Positions 1,481 to 31,700 of a stretch of 40,234 nucleotides of DNA are shown here, in pieces. Position numbers and translations under genes: made by a program. The notes under the pieces were generated by a model. It saw only the letters and a list, made by a program, of their open reading frames with translations, ran no database searches and had not been told where the DNA came from. Numbering within the stretch: the first letter of the stretch is position 1; every line of letters begins with the position of its first letter. The stretch is from assembly GCA_037127815.1 (NCBI GenBank), contig JBAXXP010000006.1:1-40234 (forward strand), read 5' to 3'. This DNA is from a bacterium. GTDB lineage: Bacteria > Patescibacteriota > Minisyncoccia > Phycocordibacterales > CAIZLB01.

Positions 1481-2455
1481 ATGAAGATATATAGGTTATT
1501 ACTTACAGTTCTAATATTTTTCATAGTTATCTATGCTTTTAGGGGGTATTTAAGACCCTCAGATTATGGTTTGGTTAATAATTCTATATTACAAACACTG
1601 GGTGTTTCAACAAATACCTCAAGTACCACAGCTGATGCAGGATTGGAACTATCAGCAAGTTCATCTCCAAGCCTATTGGATAAAATCAAGGAGATAGACA
1701 CTAAAATAAACAATTATACTATAAATAGAGATAAACTATCTCCTGTTATAGGTAATAATAATTCGTCAGATGTTGAAAATAGATTAACCACAGATGGTAT
1801 TTTCTTTGCCGCCAATTCAGAAAGAGTAAATCAATCACTGGACGTTCTTAAAAGGAATTCTGTTTTAGATATTTCTGCACAAATTAAACTTAACGATATG
1901 TTTAGTAATCAATACTTTGAACATGTCTCACCAAGTGGTACTAGTGTATCCGATGTTGTGAACGGTGTTGGATATACTTTTCTCGTTGTGGGTGAAAACC
2001 TTGCGCTTGGAAACTTTGCAGGGGATTCTAAGGTTACCGCTGCTTGGATGGCAAGCCCAGGACACAGAGCAAATATATTAGATAAAAGATATACAGAGAT
2101 AGGTGTTGCTGTTGGCTATGGTATGTATAAAGGTCAAATGCAATGGTTGGCAGTTCAGCATTTTGCTAGACCTATGTCGTCATGTCCATCTCCAAGTGCT
2201 GGAATTAAGACTAAAATTGCCACCGATAAGAACGATCTAGTTCAAAGAGAGGAAGACATTACTACTATGAAAAAAGTTGTAGATAAGACTGAGTCATCTG
2301 ACGCTAATTTCACATTAACAGTATCTAGTTATAATGCACTTGTTAACGATTATAATAATAGACTTAAAAATCTTAGAACAGAAATAGCTAACTACAATGA
2401 ACAGGTTAAGAACTATAATACTTGTTTGGATTCAGTTACGCTGGCAACACAATAA
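1481..2455 (+). CDS. secreted or membrane-anchored CAP (SCP/PR1) domain protein
   Basis: The 324-residue protein starts with a hydrophobic segment (about 4-20), a signal anchor or signal peptide, so it acts outside the membrane. Residues about 128-235 are a CAP domain: HVSPSGTSVSDVV, GENLALG and SPGHRANIL match the CAP signature motifs. In bacteria such domains occur in cell-wall and spore proteins; biochemical function is mostly unknown. A Ser/Thr-rich linker (40-60) precedes a short helical region. The C-terminal ~80 residues are predicted coiled coil (NALVNDYNNRLKNLRTEIAN). Two Cys (SCPSPS and NTCLD) flank the coiled coil and might form a disulfide. It is a single gene between the palindrome and a long hairpin. 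Confidence 0.85.
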   Translation: MKIYRLLLTVLIFFIVIYAFRGYLRPSDYGLVNNSILQTLGVSTNTSSTTADAGLELSASSSPSLLDKIKEIDTKINNYTINRDKLSPVIGNNNSSDVENRLTTDGIFFAANSERVNQSLDVLKRNSVLDISAQIKLNDMFSNQYFEHVSPSGTSVSDVVNGVGYTFLVVGENLALGNFAGDSKVTAAWMASPGHRANILDKRYTEIGVAVGYGMYKGQMQWLAVQHFARPMSSCPSPSAGIKTKIATDKNDLVQREEDITTMKKVVDKTESSDANFTLTVSSYNALVNDYNNRLKNLRTEIANYNEQVKNYNTCLDSVTLATQ

Positions 2456-2510
2456 GACACATAGAAATACTCCAGAGACGTTATGCGCCTCTGGAGTATT
2501 TCTATGTGTC
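2456..2510. terminator. 22-bp perfect hairpin between convergent genes
   Basis: It begins at the base after the CAP gene stop. Arms 2456-2477 and 2489-2510 are perfectly complementary over 22 bp, with an 11-nt loop ACGTTATGCGC. It sits between convergent genes, which suggests a bidirectional transcription end, but neither side carries a long T-run; the only T-rich part is TATTT inside the stem. Confidence 0.6.
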
Positions 2511-2545
2511 TATGTCTTGTAATCATTGTGACGATGAGGATCTCC

Positions 2546-3715
2546 TTATGTAAGCTTCCTTGCGTATCTTACCCCAAGTAGCATTATTAAGGCTAATATT
2601 ATCCATGAATACTCTGTACCCATCGTAAAAATTGCTACCGTTGCAACAGCTGGAACTATCAAAAAAGGAATACTTCTGGCCATTCTAAATAAGCTAATGT
2701 AGCCTGAGTTTGTTGCTTTAACATGTTTGAAGAAATATATTTCTGTTGATACTTCAACTATACTTGCTCCAATTCTAGAGACAAATAATATTGTTGCCCA
2801 AAATATAAAGTTCTTGTCTGTAATAAAAGACATTATTAGTACGGAAAAAGCCATAATTAGGAAACCAAAAATTAAGACCATTTTTTCATCATGTCTTCTG
2901 TCTTCAATTTTTCCAACCAGGAATTGAAATAGTATAAAAGGAAGTAGTGCAATACCTAAAATTAAACCAACTTCTTCCCAGTTAAAGCCGATGTCCTTTA
3001 TTAAGTAAAGCGGCATGTAAATTACCATCCAACAGTAGAAAACATTCAGTAGAAAATCATCGATAAATACATCGTAAACATTTTCAGAATTTAAAAAGTG
3101 TTTAATAGTACGAGTTATATCTATCTTGGGATATTCAGGATCTTTGAAGTTCTTAAAATTCAAAAGAATGATTAATAGGAATGGAATTAAAAATAGAGCT
3201 GATATGGAATATATTTTCCAATACTCAGTACTTTCACTTAGTATAAGCCCAACCATAACGGGGGTTATTATTGGAGCTAGATTATATACAGTTAGATACA
3301 TTCCTCTGACACTACCTACGTATTTTTGCTCCGTGTTTTGTTCTAGAAAAATATCTAAGCAGTAGAAAAGAATAGGACCAATTCCTTGATGTATCACAAA
3401 GAATGCAGCAACAGCAAGGCTCCATGGAAGGAATGCAATACCAAGTAGTATGGATAATTCTACTCCAGTTAGCATAAGTATTAATCTAAAATTACCTCTT
3501 TGTCTTAGGTATTTTGGAATAAGGAGAAAGGTTGAGATACTGGCTAGTGCTCCAAGCATGTAAACGATACCAACCTGAGTTTCAGATAGGAATCCAGAAA
3601 GAAAGCTTGAGTTTATAAAGTAAATTAAATATGTGTGAAAGGAGAGAAGAAGAACTGATACTAGTATGACCAGTAAAACATTTAATGTTTTAATTTTATT
3701 CACAATTTTATCCAT
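2546..3715 (-). CDS. major facilitator superfamily (MFS) transporter
   Basis: The 389-residue protein is almost entirely hydrophobic, with about 12 predicted membrane helices in two halves split by a polar loop near residue 200 (FKNFKDPEYPKIDITRT). The inter-helix basic loops (PKYLRQRGNFR after helix 2, GKIEDRRHDEKM after helix 8) resemble the MFS loop 2-3/8-9 motif. No substrate-specific residues are recognisable; drug or metabolite efflux is possible. It has its own promoter (TAAAAT 6 nt before ATG) directly downstream of palindrome copy 2, so it is probably not cotranscribed with RNase J. Confidence 0.8.
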   Translation of the reverse strand: MDKIVNKIKTLNVLLVILVSVLLLSFHTYLIYFINSSFLSGFLSETQVGIVYMLGALASISTFLLIPKYLRQRGNFRLILMLTGVELSILLGIAFLPWSLAVAAFFVIHQGIGPILFYCLDIFLEQNTEQKYVGSVRGMYLTVYNLAPIITPVMVGLILSESTEYWKIYSISALFLIPFLLIILLNFKNFKDPEYPKIDITRTIKHFLNSENVYDVFIDDFLLNVFYCWMVIYMPLYLIKDIGFNWEEVGLILGIALLPFILFQFLVGKIEDRRHDEKMVLIFGFLIMAFSVLIMSFITDKNFIFWATILFVSRIGASIVEVSTEIYFFKHVKATNSGYISLFRMARSIPFLIVPAVATVAIFTMGTEYSWIILALIMLLGVRYARKLT

Positions 3716-3721
3716 GTATTT

Positions 3722-3727
3722 ATTTTA
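3722..3727 (-). promoter_or_regulatory. -10 box of MFS gene, leaderless type
   Basis: On the minus strand TAAAAT is followed by AAATAC and then the ATG (spacer 6). The expected -35 position abuts the dispersed palindrome. Confidence 0.5.
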
Positions 3728-3737
3728 GCACAGACTA

Positions 3738-3790
3738 GGGTTGGGCACCAAAAATTGGGGTCAGGCACCATGGTGCCTGACCCCAATTTT
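3738..3790. repeat. dispersed palindrome, copy 2, with a decayed half-copy
   Basis: The 28-nt core (3757-3784) is identical to the other copies. The flanks AAAATT/AATTTT extend it to a 40-nt perfect palindrome (3751-3790). Immediately beside it, 3738-3750 (GGGTTGGGCACCA) matches the half-site GGGTCAGGCACCA at 11 of 13 positions, as if a second half-copy had decayed. On the minus strand the element is followed by TTTTTGG, so here it could terminate RNase J transcription. Confidence 0.85.
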
Positions 3791-3813
3791 TGTTTTATTC
3801 TAATTTATTTATA

Positions 3814-6018
3814 CTATACGCAAATCATCACCGGAATGATAATAGGCTTCTTAGCAGTTTGTTGGAAAAGAAATTTTCCCAATGACTCTGAAACAACGTC
3901 TTTAACGTAATCAATGTTAATAGGATGAGAACCTTGAGTAACCTGCTCAATACAGCTCTTAACAAGGTATCTAGTCTCTCTAAGTAACTCCTGTGACTCA
4001 CGCAAGTAAACTGAACCTCTTGAAATAATATCAGGAGACTTCTTAAGCTTACCAGTTGAAGCATTAATCAATGCGATTACAACGAATATTCCATCTTGAG
4101 ATAAGATCTGTCTATCTCTAATAACAACATCCTGTATATCTCCAATAGTGAATCCATCAACCATAACAGTATTGTTTGGAGCTTTTGTAGAAAGTCTAAC
4201 TAGCTTTGTTCCTCCGTCTTGGATTTCAATAATAGTACCGTCGTCTGGAACAATTACATTTTCCTTTGGAACTCCAAGATTCTCGGCAAGCTCAGCGTGT
4301 AATCTAAGCATATAGTGATGTCCGTGAATTGGAATAAAGAATTTAGGACGAAGTTTTCTGTGTAGCCATTCAATTTCACCTCTGTTTCCGTGTCCTGTTG
4401 AGTGAATATAAACATCAGAAGTTCTATAGTGAATAATCTTTACACCAAGTCTCGCAACATTGTCTTTCAACTTTTGAACAGCCTTTTCATTTCCTGGAAT
4501 AATTGATGAAGACAAAACCAGTGTGTCTCTATCTGTTAATCTGAAATTCTTAATACTGTTTGTAGATGCGCGCATTAGGAATGCAAATTCATCTCCTTGT
4601 GCACCTGTTGCAAGTACAACAATCTTATCTGGTGGGTATTGATCAATTTCAGCACCACTGATTACAGTTCCTGGTTTGATTTTTAACATTCCAGCGGCAA
4701 TTGCAATGTCCACGTTATTCTTCATACTTCTTCCTTCGATAATCAATCTTTTACCATACTTCTCACAAGCCATGATGACGTGTGCGATACGGTGAAAGTG
4801 TGAAGCAAACATTCCCATTATAAGTCTACCGTGTGTAGCTCTAATTATTTCATCGAGGTTCTCATGAACAATATAGTCAGGTGTAGAGAATCCTGGGTTT
4901 TCTATGTTTGTAGATTCACCCATAAATAGCAGAACATTTTTACCATCGAAAAGATCGTAATTTTTCTCTTCCTCTGCAGTAACAACAGTCTCTCTGTGAT
5001 CTAGCTTAAAGTCTCCAGGGTTAACAATCATTCCATAAGGAGTATCAACGATAACACCCATGGCATCTGGAATACTGTGACTAACACCAAAGAATCTAAC
5101 ACTGATGTTTCCAAGCTTAACTGACTCTCTATCTCTTTCTACGATTCTATAATCAACTGGTGGAAGATGAGGAAATTCAGATTGACGCTTCTTAATCATC
5201 AAAGAAGTTAAATTTCTTGTGTAAAGTGGGGGATTACCAATTCTGTCCATAATAAATGGAAGCCCTCCAATGTGGTCTAAGTGACCGTGGGTAATGATAA
5301 TTGCTCTAATCTTATCCTTTCTTTCTTCAAGATATTTTGTGTTAGGAAGAATATAGTCAATACCTGGTGTATCAGTGTCTTTGAATTTAAATCCTGCGTC
5401 AATAATGATGATATCGTTTCCGATTTCAATCAATGACATGTTCATTCCAATTTCTTCAACTCCTCCAAGTGGAATAATTCTAATGTTTTCTCCTACAGGA
5501 GGAATATGTAAACTCTCAGGTGCTTTTTGTACATCTGATGCGTTTGAAACAGTTCTCTTTGTTGGATCAGCTTTTTTGTGTCTGCTAATTTGAGTTCTTC
5601 TTTTTGGTCCACGAGCAGGCATCATTTGGTCGCCCTGAGGTTGTCCTTGGAACGCTCCTTGTCCTTGTGGTGCACGATCATTATATTGTCCAGCATCTCT
5701 TGGTCCATAGTCAGCTTGATTGTTTTGTTGTGGGCCTTGTTGCGCATTTGAGCGAGCGCTGTTTACGCTTCTGTTGTACTCAGCAGAGCTTCTCGGTCCT
5801 GTCGCTGATGCTGACGGGTGAGCTGACGATGTTGGAGTTGATGTACGAGAAGTGCTTTCTGTTCCAACAGCTCTCTCTATTGCCATATCAAGGCTTTTGT
5901 CTAGGTTGTTATCATTGTTATTACCACTATCTTGCGCTGTATTTGTACTAGCATTTATTATTTGCTGAAATGGCTTAACGATAGGTGGTCTTGTGTTATA
6001 TGAGTTTCTGTAGTTCAT
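3814..6018 (-). CDS. rnj: ribonuclease J with long disordered N-terminal extension
   Basis: Residues about 177-734 are a metallo-beta-lactamase/beta-CASP ribonuclease J, the 5'-to-3' exonuclease and endonuclease of RNA decay and processing. The metal-binding motif THGHLDHIGG gives H244, H246, D248 and H249. SHSIPDAMG, NPGDFKLD, the beta-CASP STGHGNRGE and PIHGHHYM follow in order, and the C-terminal RNase J dimer domain is present, so the enzyme looks complete. Residues 1-176 are disordered, rich in Asn, Gln, Ser and Pro, and end in a basic patch (ARGPKRRTQISRHKK). RNase J of Firmicutes is about 555 residues and lacks this. The tail might hold RNA or partner proteins, which is inference. It lies 33 nt downstream of the solute-binding protein gene. 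Confidence 0.93.
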   Translation of the reverse strand: MNYRNSYNTRPPIVKPFQQIINASTNTAQDSGNNNDNNLDKSLDMAIERAVGTESTSRTSTPTSSAHPSASATGPRSSAEYNRSVNSARSNAQQGPQQNNQADYGPRDAGQYNDRAPQGQGAFQGQPQGDQMMPARGPKRRTQISRHKKADPTKRTVSNASDVQKAPESLHIPPVGENIRIIPLGGVEEIGMNMSLIEIGNDIIIIDAGFKFKDTDTPGIDYILPNTKYLEERKDKIRAIIITHGHLDHIGGLPFIMDRIGNPPLYTRNLTSLMIKKRQSEFPHLPPVDYRIVERDRESVKLGNISVRFFGVSHSIPDAMGVIVDTPYGMIVNPGDFKLDHRETVVTAEEEKNYDLFDGKNVLLFMGESTNIENPGFSTPDYIVHENLDEIIRATHGRLIMGMFASHFHRIAHVIMACEKYGKRLIIEGRSMKNNVDIAIAAGMLKIKPGTVISGAEIDQYPPDKIVVLATGAQGDEFAFLMRASTNSIKNFRLTDRDTLVLSSSIIPGNEKAVQKLKDNVARLGVKIIHYRTSDVYIHSTGHGNRGEIEWLHRKLRPKFFIPIHGHHYMLRLHAELAENLGVPKENVIVPDDGTIIEIQDGGTKLVRLSTKAPNNTVMVDGFTIGDIQDVVIRDRQILSQDGIFVVIALINASTGKLKKSPDIISRGSVYLRESQELLRETRYLVKSCIEQVTQGSHPINIDYVKDVVSESLGKFLFQQTAKKPIIIPVMICV

Positions 6019-26111: not shown

Positions 26112-26264
26112 TTGTCACTCAGACTTTGTTTTGTAAAATCACATGGTAAAGCCATAGGTCGTCTATAAATTGAATTCAGAAGTGATCTCAGAATCATCCT
26201 GCTAGCACAAACGCTAGCGTGTGTGATTGTGAATCTAACTGAATTCAAAAATAGAACAAACAAA
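26112..26264 (+). promoter_or_regulatory. promoter and structured leader of first small membrane-protein gene
   Basis: TTGTCA (26112-26117), 16 nt, TAAAAT (26134-26139) predicts a leader of about 118 nt. TTGAATTCAG (26170-26179) pairs perfectly with CTGAATTCAA (26239-26248). Inside, AATCA pairs with TGATT, and GCTAGC-ACAAAC-GCTAGC forms a top hairpin. The element ends with ATTGTGAATCTAACTGAATT before the start codon, a motif that recurs before the next gene. Confidence 0.55.
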
Positions 26265-26597
26265 ATGGAAATTCAAGCATTGTGTAAGGTAGGTCTGTAT
26301 GTATTGATGGGGTGCTATCTTGTAGTGGCATTTTTTTGCAGCGCCATGGTCGGTATGTCCATTCTCGATCGAAGTAATTCAAAAAAAGTTGGATATGCGG
26401 TTGGTCTTTTGTCCCTCGGTTTTGTTACCGGAGTGGGGTTTTCGTTTCATACCAGCGCTCATGCAATGCTCATTGATTCAACATTAACTTCGGTCATTTT
26501 TGGAATCGTCTGTATCCTTGGGGTACTTGTTGCATGTGGCGCAAGTAGTTGGAGCAATTCTTCTGCTAAAGAGTATGATGATAAGTCCAAAAAGTGA
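26265..26597 (+). CDS. small three-helix membrane protein A
   Basis: The 110-residue protein has three predicted helices: VGLYVLMGCYLVVAFFCSAM, KVGYAVGLLSLGFVTGVGF and VIFGIVCILGVLVACGA. A short polar tail (SAKEYDDKSKK) follows. I do not recognise the family. The ATG at 26265 is chosen because the same leader motif sits at the same distance before the next gene; the ATG at 26223 lies within that leader. It forms a pair with gene B 78 nt downstream. Confidence 0.68.
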   Translation: MEIQALCKVGLYVLMGCYLVVAFFCSAMVGMSILDRSNSKKVGYAVGLLSLGFVTGVGFSFHTSAHAMLIDSTLTSVIFGIVCILGVLVACGASSWSNSSAKEYDDKSKK

Positions 26598-26675
26598 TTC
26601 TATGATTACACTGTAGGTAAGCGCATGCGTACGCAATTGTGAATCTGACTAAATTTAACTCTAGAAATAAAACAA
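26598..26675 (+). promoter_or_regulatory. leader between membrane-protein genes A and B
   Basis: ATTGTGAATCTGACTAAATT repeats the motif before gene A with two transitions. Upstream, GATTC near the start pairs with GAATC in the motif, and GCGCATGCGTACGC forms a small GC-rich hairpin. Confidence 0.45.
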
Positions 26676-27023
26676 ATGAATATCATGGATATGTTTGCTT
26701 TGGTGTGTAGATGGATTGTGTTGTTTTGTTCATCGGCATTTGTATTGGCATTTTCTTGCCTTGCCGCCTTTGGGTACTACAAACACAAAATTGAACCCAA
26801 TCGCCTTGCTCTTGCTATGATTTACACGGTGTTTCTTATTTCAGCGATAGCTGTCTACTACACGGGACATTTTGTGGGACTAGGTACAATGAAGATTGTG
26901 TGTGAGTTGGTAATTCTATCTTTCATTGGGGTATTTGTAGGACTGCCTTCTGAAAAAATCTTTTTTAATCAGGAGAAGCAGAAGATGGAGGTTAAGAAGA
27001 AATTTGGAATCAAATCAGACTGA
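26676..27023 (+). CDS. small three-helix membrane protein B
   Basis: The 115-residue protein has three helices (WIVLFCSSAFVLAFSCLAAF, LALAMIYTVFLISAIAVYY, IVCELVILSFIGVFVGL) and a basic tail (KQKMEVKKKFGIKSD). Topology and size match protein A, though direct sequence identity looks low; the two may be diverged paralogs. No function is recognisable. Its leader motif and GC-rich hairpin resemble those of gene A. Confidence 0.68.
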   Translation: MNIMDMFALVCRWIVLFCSSAFVLAFSCLAAFGYYKHKIEPNRLALAMIYTVFLISAIAVYYTGHFVGLGTMKIVCELVILSFIGVFVGLPSEKIFFNQEKQKMEVKKKFGIKSD

Positions 27024-27163: not shown

Positions 27164-28081
27164 CTATTCTGAAAGAATCTCACAATATTTTTCCATACCA
27201 AGAATAATTTTGTAGGAAATGTTGTGCCAATGTTTTACAATTAAAATTATAGAACTATCACCATCTAGAGTTTCTATTTTTATAGCTTCATTATCTGTTT
27301 GAGTATTTTTATACTTACTTAGCACCGCGTCAATTTCGATTAACTTTTCTTTGCAATACAAAAGAGACTTTTCTGCAATTTTTAATTTCACAATATCACT
27401 GAGCTCCAAGGGTTTGCCTTGCCAAGAATATAGAATGGTAGGGAGGGTTGTTCTATTATTTTTTATGTCCTCCGATAGGTCCTTAAGATCATCTGAAGTT
27501 TGTCTTATTGAACAAAAACAGAAACAACATTTTATAATGTCTCTGGTATGACTTTTCTGATTAGATACAGCCGAAGATAGAGCGCGGGCTAGAACAAAAG
27601 GTATAATGTAGGGAATAGATCTAATGCCTTGTATCTTATTATATGAAATTGATTGCGGGTCATTTGCACATTGTAAATACTGCCTGTTTACGGAATTATT
27701 AAGTTTTTCTAAGAATACAGATTCCTTGGATTGCTTACTCAGTTCATCAAAAATAATTTTATACTCAAGTAACATTGAAAGAAAAATATTTAAATCTTTT
27801 GCATCACTTTCTTCATCTGCAATGGAGTCTATTGCATTGTAGGAGATTAGACCAAGGGTATATAATTTAACAAGCTTCTTGTTCTGTCCTTTTGGAATTT
27901 CAAGAGACGCCAGATATTGTTTAAATATATCTAGATCTTTAGCAAGCCAGAGGTTTAGGTCGGGGACGTGGCAGGCGGTAGTTGCCTTTATCTGTAGAAG
28001 TTCTCTTTGTTTTGTATTTTTACTATTACACTGGTATGACGACCGTAAATATTGAGCCTTTTTGTAATTTACTTTTAACAC
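27164..28081 (-). CDS. class I isoprenoid (polyprenyl) synthase-like protein, ComQ-like
   Basis: The 305-residue protein is all-helical. SIRQTSDDLKDLSEDIKNN and then RTTLPTIL, near residues 191-217, match the second Asp-rich motif of trans-prenyl diphosphate synthases (Q-x-x-D-D-x-x-D, basic loop, T-L-P). The first motif would be NAIDSIADEESD near 82-93, a D-S-x-x-D variant of DDxxD. Such enzymes condense or transfer prenyl diphosphates; ComQ of Bacillus is a diverged member that prenylates the ComX peptide. The GTG start at 28081 overlaps the kinase by 56 nt and no later ATG/GTG/TTG is available, so the two are probably translationally coupled. ComQ-like function is inference from coupling to a multi-helix kinase. 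Confidence 0.65.
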   Translation of the reverse strand: MLKVNYKKAQYLRSSYQCNSKNTKQRELLQIKATTACHVPDLNLWLAKDLDIFKQYLASLEIPKGQNKKLVKLYTLGLISYNAIDSIADEESDAKDLNIFLSMLLEYKIIFDELSKQSKESVFLEKLNNSVNRQYLQCANDPQSISYNKIQGIRSIPYIIPFVLARALSSAVSNQKSHTRDIIKCCFCFCSIRQTSDDLKDLSEDIKNNRTTLPTILYSWQGKPLELSDIVKLKIAEKSLLYCKEKLIEIDAVLSKYKNTQTDNEAIKIETLDGDSSIILIVKHWHNISYKIILGMEKYCEILSE

Positions 28082-29444
28082 TAATTTTACCTTTGAAATA
28101 TTTTTCTAGAATGTGTTTTGTTGCAGACAGTCCTATTCCACAACCATGTTCTTGTTTTGTAGTATAAAATGGTTCAAATATTTTATCCAATATGTCTTTT
28201 TTAATACCTTGACCATTATCAATTACTCTAATATAAATATTATCAGACTGCAGTTTAATTAGAATCACTACTTTTTTGTTTTCATTTACCCGAATAGGGG
28301 TTGTTTCATTATTATATAAAACATGAGAGTCTATTCCATTTGAAACCAGATTCATTATTATGTGGGAGAAGAGAGTCTGTGATCCATATATTTTTAAATC
28401 AAAATTTCCTTTTGATAATATAATTTTTACGTTATTTTTCATTCCCTTCGATTTCAATATTGCCACCACAGAGCGCATTTCTTCGGTAATACTGAACGTT
28501 GTATAAACACTATCGAGTTTAATATGTTTTCTGGACTGCTCCATTAGTGTCTCCATCTTTTTAATCGATGGTATTAAAAAGTTCACCGTTTCCTTTGCCT
28601 CCTCCATATTGTGCATTTGTAGATTTAGAGCTATTCCAGTTAGTGGGCTCATGATGTCATGAAATAACCCAGAAGATATTCTTCCAAATTCTACCATTCT
28701 ATACATAGAATTTATCTTATCTATTTGAAGAGCCTTAATTTCTTCTGTCCTCTCTTTTACTTTTAATTCTAAATTATCTTTTTCAAATTGTAATTTTGCT
28801 TCCGCTTTTCTTGATCTGTTTAAAGCTTTTTCAAGCTGGCTATTGCTCAACCATGAAAAAAATGCTGCAAATATCAACAATAGGGAATATTCAATAACAT
28901 CAATTTCATTAAAAAAACTATCTTTCCAGCTGTAGTCTATTTCTAGTAGTTGATTTGACTCTATGTAGTTGAATACCCATAAGTGCGCCGATAGTAGTAT
29001 TGCTGATATTAATCCCGCCTTGGAATTTATTAATATTCCTGATATCAAAACTGTGATAAATAACGCTATTAACACAGTTGGTAAATCAGCACCCCATTGT
29101 GAGGATCCATAAAATATACAGGAGTATATAAGTGCTAATATTATGGAGCTACTAACTAAAATAAAATTCTTCTTAGATAACCAAAAAGCGACAGACGTGA
29201 TTATTATGAAGAGTGCCAGTGTAATTATAGATACACCTGTATATAATGAAGATTTTCTATATTGAGAGTATAAGGATAAGAATAATAATAAAAAGAAAAA
29301 AGTTATCATTACTAAACATAAAATATTTAGTATAAACTTTTTTCTTTTTAAATCTTCACAGATTGTGCTATCAAGGAATAATGTATTTTTTATAGAATTA
29401 TAAAAACTTCTAATTTTTTGAGATATATTATTCAGATTTAACAT
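28026..29444 (-). CDS. sensor histidine kinase with six-helix membrane domain
   Basis: The N-terminus (about 35-200) has six closely spaced helices and almost no extracytoplasmic domain, as in kinases that sense lipophilic or small diffusible signals (CqsS, AgrC and ComP types). A coiled coil (EKALNRSRKAEAKLQFEKDNLELKVKE) follows. The H-box is GLFHDIMSPLTGI (phospho-His). The ATPase domain has an N-box IIMNLVSNGIDS, G1 VIDNGQGI, F-box FEPFYTT and G2 HGCGIGLS, so it should be active. No response regulator is in the window. It is the promoter-proximal gene of a pair with the prenyl-synthase-like gene. Confidence 0.88.
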   Translation of the reverse strand: MLNLNNISQKIRSFYNSIKNTLFLDSTICEDLKRKKFILNILCLVMITFFFLLLFLSLYSQYRKSSLYTGVSIITLALFIIITSVAFWLSKKNFILVSSSIILALIYSCIFYGSSQWGADLPTVLIALFITVLISGILINSKAGLISAILLSAHLWVFNYIESNQLLEIDYSWKDSFFNEIDVIEYSLLLIFAAFFSWLSNSQLEKALNRSRKAEAKLQFEKDNLELKVKERTEEIKALQIDKINSMYRMVEFGRISSGLFHDIMSPLTGIALNLQMHNMEEAKETVNFLIPSIKKMETLMEQSRKHIKLDSVYTTFSITEEMRSVVAILKSKGMKNNVKIILSKGNFDLKIYGSQTLFSHIIMNLVSNGIDSHVLYNNETTPIRVNENKKVVILIKLQSDNIYIRVIDNGQGIKKDILDKIFEPFYTTKQEHGCGIGLSATKHILEKYFKGKISVKSKLQKGSIFTVVIPV

Positions 29445-29789
29445 GGTCTATAAACTTAATTCCAAGGATACAATATATCTTCTTGTCTGACTTTGGCAGT
29501 ATTCATATATTACTTTATTATCGATTATAATCAATGCGTCAGATATTATCTGTGAATGTATTTACTTATGGATCCAAATTCTTAGATTGTACAATTACCT
29601 CATGACAAGTAGGTTGTACAACCCAATATTTGAACCTATGAACTAGAATACAAAGAATACGAAACATTGGGGATACTCGACAGTATCCCGTTAATCATCA
29701 TAATCAATAGACATGAGTTTTCTATAAAGATTTCCTAAAGAAAAACGAAAGAAAAAATGTAGTTTTATATAAAATAAGACCTAATATGA
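29445..29789. other. 345-nt gap upstream of the kinase, with two palindromes
   Basis: ATTGTACAAT (29586-29595) and GGTTGTACAACC (29612-29623) are perfect palindromes sharing TTGTACAA, with centres 27 nt apart. GGGATAC-TCGACA-GTATCCC (29670-29689) is a 7-bp hairpin. A 33-codon minus-strand ORF (29667-29566, MFRILCILVHRFKYWVVQPT...) spans the palindromes; a 14-codon plus-strand ORF at 29602 has TACAAT 6 nt upstream. Neither is convincing as a gene alone. Confidence 0.5.
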
Positions 29790-30307: not shown

Positions 30308-31003
30308 TTATTTCTCATTATTGTGCATTATTTTCAATAAAAAGATTGTATCGCTCTTTAATTTAGCGCGTACTGAATTTTTCTGTGGGTCGGACAGTAG
30401 TTCACCTAGACCATCCAATATATGCTTATTATCCATTGATTCCAGCATACCAATACACTTTTCTAATGCTTGCTTATAGGTTAAACCAGACCTCTCAACT
30501 ACAATTTTTTTATTTATAGGCCAATTATTTTTAGCAAAGTATCGAACATCAAAAATATCTCTACTTGTTTTCCCAATTCTCTCAATCATCGCCATTAATT
30601 TATGTGCAAACATGTCTTCTTGTACCATTACAAGCATGGAAATACCAAGTAAGGTTTTCATTTCATATTTAGATCCGAATTGTCTCCTGTTTACCTCGAT
30701 CTTAATATTTTGAGATTTTTTGTCATAGGAGATAACATTTTTTAAATTTGCCTTTTGTATGTAAGAATCCGTAATAACCCCATAATTGCTTGCAATTTTA
30801 TTTATTTTTTCAAAAACCTCATTTTCTTTTGATTTATCTAATAGATCAAGATCTAAATCAACAGAGTCTCTAGGAAGATCATAAAACATCATAGCAGCAG
30901 TACCACCCTTGAACCCTAAATAGGGGGCTATAGAAGTATCAGAATAAATATCCTTCAGAATCTGTAGTAATATATTTTTATGTTTTAGGTAGTCTAATGT
31001 CAT
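30308..31003 (-). CDS. AbiEii/AbiGii-type nucleotidyltransferase toxin
   Basis: The 231-residue protein matches the AbiEii family (DNA polymerase beta-like nucleotidyltransferase fold). YLGFKGGTAAMMFYDLPRDS and VDLDLDLL supply the glycine-rich loop and the metal-binding aspartates. Further family features are IKIEVNRRQF, the MVQEDMFAHKLMAMIERIGKTSRDIFDV helix (K-x-x-A and R-D-x-x-D), and a helical C-terminal part. Homologs (AbiEii, MenT) act as toxins that nucleotidylate targets such as tRNA acceptor ends, and are blocked by the partner AbiEi. It starts 47 nt after the antitoxin stop. Confidence 0.85.
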   Translation of the reverse strand: MTLDYLKHKNILLQILKDIYSDTSIAPYLGFKGGTAAMMFYDLPRDSVDLDLDLLDKSKENEVFEKINKIASNYGVITDSYIQKANLKNVISYDKKSQNIKIEVNRRQFGSKYEMKTLLGISMLVMVQEDMFAHKLMAMIERIGKTSRDIFDVRYFAKNNWPINKKIVVERSGLTYKQALEKCIGMLESMDNKHILDGLGELLSDPQKNSVRAKLKSDTIFLLKIMHNNEK

Positions 31004-31050
31004 ACGTTTAGTGTAAATTATACTATATACTATTTGTTAATCTGATTATT

Positions 31051-31656
31051 CTATTTATTCAATCGACTATTTTGATAATTCTTGAAGTATTCCGCAACTT
31101 TCTTTTCTAACCTTTTATTATGATAAATTGGTAAAATTTCAAAAACCTTATCCCAATTTAAGTTTGATAAATTATCAAAGTGATAATCCTTACTAATATA
31201 TATACGATCCAAAAATGCTCGCTCCCGTGTTGCCATTGCATATCCTCCTTTATGCTCAATTCCTGTTGTATTACTCAAGACATAGTCTTTCATTCTTATA
31301 AAAGTGATTTTTTGCTCTCCAATACTAATTTCACGATTTATATATGTAGCAACAAAAATATTTCCGTAGTATTGAAAATTGACACCCTCTCTTGTTAAAA
31401 CAGTTTCAAAGCTGATGTAGGATGGGGTATTGATTCTGGTTGCTAATTCAAAAGAATCATAGTTTTTATCTTTAGCATATAAACCTCGACGTACTTTAAC
31501 TAACTTTCCAATCTTTGTGTATTTATTTAATCTGTTGCTGATTATTGATTCATTTTCTTCGCCCCACATCAAAGCCGCGTCCTTTATAGAAAAGATCGTC
31601 TTATCTGACCTCAATAAAGTCTCTAAATATCCACCTTTTGTAGGTTTTTTGTCCAT
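31051..31656 (-). CDS. AbiEi-type antitoxin / transcriptional regulator
   Basis: The 201-residue protein is AbiEi-like: an N-terminal winged helix (TIFSIKDAALMWGEENESIISNRLNKYTKIGKLVKVRRGLY) and a C-terminal domain (YISFETVLTREGVNFQYYG, ATRERAFLDRIYI). In type IV AbiE systems the antitoxin represses its own operon by binding inverted repeats and neutralises the toxin. The ATG at 31656 is chosen; a GTG at 31674 would put the start inside the operator-like repeat. An inverted repeat overlaps the promoter just upstream. Confidence 0.83.
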   Translation of the reverse strand: MDKKPTKGGYLETLLRSDKTIFSIKDAALMWGEENESIISNRLNKYTKIGKLVKVRRGLYAKDKNYDSFELATRINTPSYISFETVLTREGVNFQYYGNIFVATYINREISIGEQKITFIRMKDYVLSNTTGIEHKGGYAMATRERAFLDRIYISKDYHFDNLSNLNWDKVFEILPIYHNKRLEKKVAEYFKNYQNSRLNK

Positions 31657-31660
31657 ATTG

Positions 31661-31700
31661 TGACTGGAATGCACTTTAAACGCATATTCCAGTCATAATA
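31661..31700 (-). promoter_or_regulatory. promoter and operator-like repeat of AbiE-type operon
   Basis: TGACTGGAAT (31661-31670) and ATTCCAGTCA (31686-31695) are perfect 10-bp inverted arms separated by 15 nt, 5 nt from the ATG. TATTAT on the minus strand (31695-31700) overlaps the distal arm. The layout fits autorepression by AbiEi. Confidence 0.7.

Follow-up and report, generated by a model that had tools for sequence, protein, structure and literature searches.

The window, the whole stretch of 40,234 nt of Patescibacteria DNA analysed here, probably carries a reduced version of a signalling cassette, new to Patescibacteria, for communication between cells or on contact with the host, in which a short peptide would be lipidated on a tryptophan by a terpene synthase (Q), sensed by a multi-helix membrane kinase (P) and its signal relayed to a response regulator (A). 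The genes of the full cassette are ordered A-X-P-Q, X being a prepeptide that ends in Trp. The initial annotation had proposed a ComQ/ComP-like coupling for making and sensing a lipophilic signal, and this core idea is supported because it agrees with the adjacency of kinase and synthase, with the class I isoprenoid fold and with the finding of both a cognate regulator and a Trp-ending peptide that is conserved, signalling itself being what such a set of genes would predict. Neither the cassette nor peptide signalling by it is described for CPR or Patescibacteria in the titles and abstracts searched (terpene synthases, quorum sensing, peptide pheromones), and within the titles and abstracts searched no description was found of a terpene synthase family like this one in Patescibacteria.

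Layout of the window locus

The open reading frames of P0001 and the kinase overlap by 56 nt (Table 1), and the coordinates of the pair and of the overlap were reproduced, as were both motif strings quoted for the 305-aa protein in the initial annotation. The kinase had been called apparently active and this is borne out by a Pfam HATPase_c match at 2.6e-20 and by H, N, D (G1), F and G (G2) boxes that are all intact, the HisKA match being weak (0.0045). A six-helix sensor, as first suggested, is reasonable in that a sixth, weaker membrane helix is plausible, but the hydropathy scan clearly shows five helices in the kinase of the window, most relatives having five or six.

Table 1. Genes and elements of the window locus (positions are those of the window)
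Feature	Position	Strand	Remarks
P0001, 'Q' component, 305 aa	27164-28081	-	GTG start within the kinase gene; putative alpha-domain-only member of the terpene synthase family
First Asp motif, YNAIDSIADE (P0001 residues 81-90)	27812-27841	-	D85 and D89 match the DxxxD positions that the family conserves (alignment, leave-one-out test)
Second Asp motif, QTSDDLKDLSEDIKNNRTTLP (P0001, from residue 194)	27440-27502	-	Q194, D197, D198, D201 and D205 kept
Sensor histidine kinase, multi-helix, 'P' component, 472 aa	28026-29444	-	H262 at 28659-28661; catalytic boxes intact; HATPase_c; sensor domain common to cassette kinases
Candidate 'X' peptide gene, MNTAKVRQEDILYPWN-stop, 16 aa	29456-29506	-	Stops 11 nt short of the kinase ATG; PW-ending; tentative
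Perfect inverted repeat, GGGGATACTCGACAGTATCCCG	29669-29690	.	Upstream of the kinase; kept in the genus
AbiEii (PF08843, 2e-14) and AbiEi antitoxin genes	30308-31674	-	Upstream of the kinase unit
Two small membrane proteins	26223-27023	+	Convergent with P0001

That no response regulator is visible, as the initial annotation had it, is correct for the window, but the genome does have one, an orphan orthologous OmpR-type regulator on contig C3 (67163-67831, corresponding to L139 5164-5832) with no kinase there. The two genes flanking it are those that flank the regulator-kinase pair in the same-genus genome G002, and judged from this synteny C3 is the likely ancestral site of the cassette. The kinase, the peptide and P0001 appear to have moved to the window site, next to the AbiE toxin-antitoxin pair, or else a rearrangement left the regulator behind; the presence of this pair upstream of the relocated unit points to an island that is mobile or rearranged. 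With kinase and regulator split in the window genome, their putative pairing rests on the synteny of relatives. Low GC at 28-32 kb was considered as proof of recent transfer and rejected, the orthologous kinase in the same-genus genome G001 being equally AT-rich (0.29). In G001 a small membrane ORF is likewise convergent with the kinase. The inverted repeat has a counterpart between regulator and kinase in G001-G004 and is possibly a terminator or a regulator site; if translated it reads GILSSIP.

The terpene synthase family

A search with the kinase sensor domain in 380 Patescibacteria genomes gave 22 matches, 18 of them strong, and beside most such kinases lies a protein mostly of 450-670 aa, usually overlapping the kinase end. 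Its N-terminal domain carries PYPDDLDDT, which is the DxDD motif of class II terpene cyclases, and its C-terminal domain carries the two Asp motifs of a class I enzyme (YTIYDDFFDxEG and RQLNDDAHDWxxDL). Against Pfam the two-domain family gives sub-threshold echoes at most, the best two-domain relative reaching PF00348 at E 0.07. Its profile finds drimenol synthase in the PDB (9mhs/9m7d) at E 1e-12, and the model of a two-domain relative (pLDDT 92.8) matches drimenol synthase at 1e-8 by Foldseek, and also single-beta cyclases, while the alpha domain forming the C-terminal half of the model matches GGPP synthases at E 1e-4. Residues D104, D106 and Y202 of the family are invariant in 45 sequences, and the beta domain with DxDD is found in most full-length relatives.

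P0001 has no family match in searches of Pfam, NCBIfam and PDB sequences, and a plasmid tblastn search likewise found none. Its description as a ComQ-like prenyl synthase stands as far as a class I isoprenoid fold goes and not as regards ComQ, the comparison of the 305-residue protein with the polyprenyl synthase family having given no PF00348 match, either for P0001 or for anything else in the window genome. P0001 is instead assigned, with moderate confidence in the fold, as the predicted alpha (class I) domain alone of the two-domain family, because of profile and direct sequence matches, its place behind the kinase and its modelled fold. A profile of the relatives' alpha domains built without P0001 finds it by hmmsearch at 1.2e-6 in a mixed set, in which the next non-family match stands at 0.74, and hhalign gives 1.9e-6 against the same domains; by tblastn it matches the 698-aa two-domain protein of the same-family genome G012 at E 5e-5 over 200 aa; and it sits behind an orthologous kinase in the position of the two-domain synthases. 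The structure model, on which the initial annotation had staked the idea of an isoprenoid enzyme, is all-helical (AlphaFold, pLDDT 74) and matches class I isoprenoid folds, MoeN5 and polyprenyl synthases being the best in the PDB (probability about 1, E 5.6e-3 at best), the fold match being moderate with a TM of about 0.35-0.5 and E above 0.001. A match in G073 was rejected as a relative of P0001 and is an unrelated deaminase/NUDIX-like ORF.

In a leave-one-out comparison P0001 keeps all five columns that are invariant in the other rows and four of the 16 conserved at 90-99%, D85 and D198 among them, at an overall identity to the family of about 15%. All six of the metal-motif Asp residues (D85, D89, D197, D198, D201 and D205) are kept. 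The first motif had been called variant, and its sequence does differ from the canonical DDxxD, reading DSIAD, but the motif is not broken, since what the family conserves is D85 and D89, the second position of DDxxD being variable. Alpha-only forms are known beside the kinase from at least three lineages (the window, L049 and L163), and the proteins of L049 and L163, which are distant lineages, keep the five invariant residues and every motif Asp. The class II beta domain with its DxDD is absent from P0001, the P0001 branch is very long (6.2 changes per column) and the synthase tree gives it no firm place; going by its divergence, P0001 may be relaxing or declining. At L165 (G328, 2322-3996) a 152-aa protein with a stretch like the second motif (RQLHDDLHDLLRD) overlaps the end of a same-strand 409-aa protein, and may be a still shorter form of the synthase.

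The cassette and its peptide across Patescibacteria

When 84,980 species genomes were scanned, with the two-domain protein as the sole query, 56 loci were found; the scan relied on conserved synthase peptide patterns and so motif conservation within its loci is partly ascertained, but the kinase-derived set (L038-L054), free of this bias, gives the same motif picture. All of the 56 records that name a lineage are Patescibacteria, a few being titled just 'bacterium', and the lineages take in CPR2, Saccharibacteria, Moran-, Levy-, Davies-, Shapiro-, Roizman-, Colwell-, Nomura-, Taylor-, Berkel-, Magasanik- and Buchananbacteria, and others. The complete Saccharibacteria chromosome CP025011 (L083) has the full cassette in a closed genome. 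Adjacency of kinase and synthase is not confined to the window genome, the synthase being directly preceded by the same kinase type in 51 of the 52 loci with enough upstream sequence, nearly all within 60 nt and 36 with an overlap, and a search for nearby response regulators found them in 46 of 55 loci, the cassette regulator (Response_reg plus Trans_reg_C) being of the OmpR type. Across the 380 Patescibacteria genomes kinase and synthase occur together in 15 and singly in three and three (Fisher 2e-21), the synthase being at a contig end in two of the three synthase-only genomes, and kinase distances correlate with synthase distances at r = 0.81, against a permutation maximum of 0.43.

The gap between regulator and kinase, 92-413 nt where measured, contains a same-strand short ORF for a peptide that is mostly of 34-40 aa. 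It opens with an amphipathic-looking stretch, continues with L-T-D-x-x-A-R and a variable middle, and has (P)W placed 1-6 residues before its end. A profile seeded with 27 peptides was run against 14,557 short ORFs from all loci; of the 56 synthase loci 50 gave a match, with E from 1e-18 to 5e-3 against noise from 0.43, and many of the matches lie outside the seed. Five of the six loci without a match are contig starts, hence 50 of 51 assessable loci are positive, and the sixth, L067, has LLKKVFINKVIRDTMAISAFVVIIMETTLVWS in frame with a non-standard start, so the short Trp-containing ORFs that the initial annotation thought worth seeking near such kinases do exist. Trp is among the last 8 residues in 54 of 54 unique peptides, as PW in 45. 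A strict PW ORF was found at 38 of 49 loci and in 1.8% of shuffles. At codon level pS exceeds pN in 98 of 98 pairs, which were picked by protein identity and so favour such a result. At L107/L164, a synthase locus without a kinase, the peptide comes immediately before the synthase and overlaps its start, and therefore peptide and synthase belong together. Five peptides compared with Pfam and four compared with NCBIfam gave no match, the ComX family included. The earlier remark that no clear ComX is visible nevertheless no longer stands, as an X-like peptide gene is recognised via the relatives, with MNTAKVRQEDILYPWN as the candidate in the window. At the alpha-only loci the candidate peptides end in GTPWRS (L049) and QWLPWY (L163).

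The call of MNTAKVRQEDILYPWN as an X gene, made from sequence, is fairly likely and yet tentative because the peptide is short, without the LTDxxAR leader motif of the full family, and no clear ribosome site was seen for its ORF. Of dinucleotide shuffles of the stretch that precedes the window kinase, 0.7% yield an ORF ending in PW; the pattern was already known from other loci when the window and the diverged loci were searched for it. An origin of the PW peptide as a hairpin artefact was rejected, as the GILSSIP string seen within the genus is the hairpin and the PW peptide is separate from it. Genomes of the same family have the peptides MIKNLLEHDVDVHTQSKSDVYNSVNGSAYPWNE (G009), MIKNILEGKIDLTTQNKADVYNSVNQTTYPWNE (G011) and MIKNILESSNKNPVIDSGTNLQYYPWSGD (G012), the YPWN(E) tail of the window peptide being common to G009 and G011, and an LPWNK ORF is possible in G008. 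The PW peptide persists in G009 and G011 although no intact synthase was seen adjoining their kinase, and therefore the linkage of peptide and synthase is imperfect. Within the genus G002-G005 keep the kinase, and the regulator too where the contig reaches, the synthase not being beside the kinase and no PW peptide having been found, and in G001, where no PW ORF remains, all that is left of the synthase behind the kinase is a 28-aa scar with 61% identity to the C terminus of P0001.

Proposed signalling and known systems

As a working scheme, a prenyl diphosphate would be bound at the Mg/Asp site of Q, in two-domain forms the chain would also be cyclised by proton-initiated class II chemistry, and the lipid (prenyl or cyclised terpenyl) would be put on the Trp near the peptide C terminus. 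The X tail would then be released and exported, and the processed peptide would be sensed by P within or at the membrane, leading to phosphorylation of the OmpR-type A. In the window version Q would be cut to its alpha domain and X to about 16 aa, with A at the old locus on contig C3. The window genome is 95.6% complete and no polyprenyl synthase (PF00348), UppS, IspH or GHMP kinase was detected in it; among genomes with the kinase family PF00348 and UppS are each present in eight of 16, IspH in just two of 18 and GHMP kinase in one of 18. Judging from this absence in the window genome, the donor may therefore be scavenged from the host, or the enzyme may use another substrate. A more daring form of the scheme, in which the beta domain cyclises and the alpha domain transfers, so that host-derived prenyl diphosphates end as a cyclised terpenoid on the pheromone Trp and the signal reports host attachment and neighbours, is possible but doubtful.

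Alternatively the synthase could release a free terpenoid, for instance an alcohol of the drimane or labdane type, which would have the membrane as its target or be the signal itself, with the PW peptide a regulatory leader or a protein-protein adaptor. The beta domain does resemble drimenol synthase, the product of which is a free alcohol (PMC12365925), and a polyprenyl synthase gene is present in 13 of 55 loci. However a leader peptide would need no PW at its C end, whereas in the cassette peptide a Trp close to the C terminus is conserved, the codons are under constraint and linkage to the synthase is near-perfect, even where the kinase is absent, which makes a free product quite improbable.

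Two other readings concern the window protein itself. The very long branch of P0001, together with the deletion of the synthase in G001 and its absence from beside the kinase in G002-G005 while the kinase persists, as does the regulator where the contig reaches, would suit a decaying, functionless relic of a lost synthase, the kinase having been re-wired as in the genus relatives; yet the 305-codon frame is intact and all invariant residues are kept despite the low identity otherwise, and so a relic seems unlikely. Least probable is an ex-enzyme turned sensor subunit that binds host prenyl diphosphate and informs the kinase. Such a subunit would suit both the lack of an isoprenoid pathway in the window genome and the recurrence, in three or more lineages, of alpha-only forms beside the kinase that keep all their metal-binding Asp, but PW candidates lie upstream of the kinase in the window, L049 and L163 alike, and a retained peptide modification fits these better.

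If the preferred reading of a lipidated peptide signal is right, the cassette would be a chemical language for host-dependent episymbionts, with kinase, regulator and signal supplied as one unit, and a terpene cyclase paired with a ribosomal peptide would be new chemistry. As the capacity to make isoprenoid precursors seems to be missing in most carriers, it also becomes directly testable what is taken from the hosts of CPR cells and what these cells tell about them.

Among solved structures MoeN5 and the trans-polyprenyl diphosphate synthases are nearest in fold to the P0001 model and have Asp-rich motifs in common with it, but there is no significant sequence match (about 10% identity), and the first motif of the P0001 family is, unlike theirs, DxxxD with a variable second position. 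The beta domain of the family has the same fold as that of the drimenol synthase AsDMS (HAD-TCbeta; PDB 9mhs, 9m7d; PMC12365925) and as single-beta class II cyclases (MstE). D331/D333 of AsDMS, the DxDD acid, align with D104/D106 of the family, and Y426/Y427 with Y201/Y202. In AsDMS the beta domain is fused to a HAD phosphatase and in the family to a class I alpha domain; also unlike AsDMS the genes of the family lie with those for a two-component system and for a peptide, and P0001 is without the beta domain.

ComQXPA is the Bacillus quorum sensing system that uses an isoprenylated-Trp peptide, ComX, and a 2014 census placed ComQXPA-like loci in Firmicutes only (PMC4008528). The likeness of the cassette to it is one of role, both having a class I isoprenoid-fold enzyme, a short prepeptide with Trp near its C terminus, a multi-helix kinase and a response regulator, in genes that are tight, often overlapping and on a single strand. 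The gene order is A-X-P-Q in Patescibacteria, with A on another contig in the window genome, as against Q-X-P-A. Unlike its ComQXPA counterpart the cassette Q has no PF00348 match and is of two domains with a class II cyclase domain; X has no match to the ComX family and yet is short, with Trp near its C terminus, and lies next to the kinase as in ComQXPA; and the kinase is of the HisKA type (a weak match), differing from that of ComQXPA. The cassette regulator is of the OmpR type (Trans_reg_C), unlike ComA, which is of the NarL/LuxR type. By membership, then, the cassette is judged on its genes not to be ComQXPA, most of the features compared (family models, gene order, regulator class) being different, and its working principle is predicted by analogy to be the same. 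Apparently the cassette is an independent origin of the ComX solution, a lipidated Trp peptide read by a membrane kinase.
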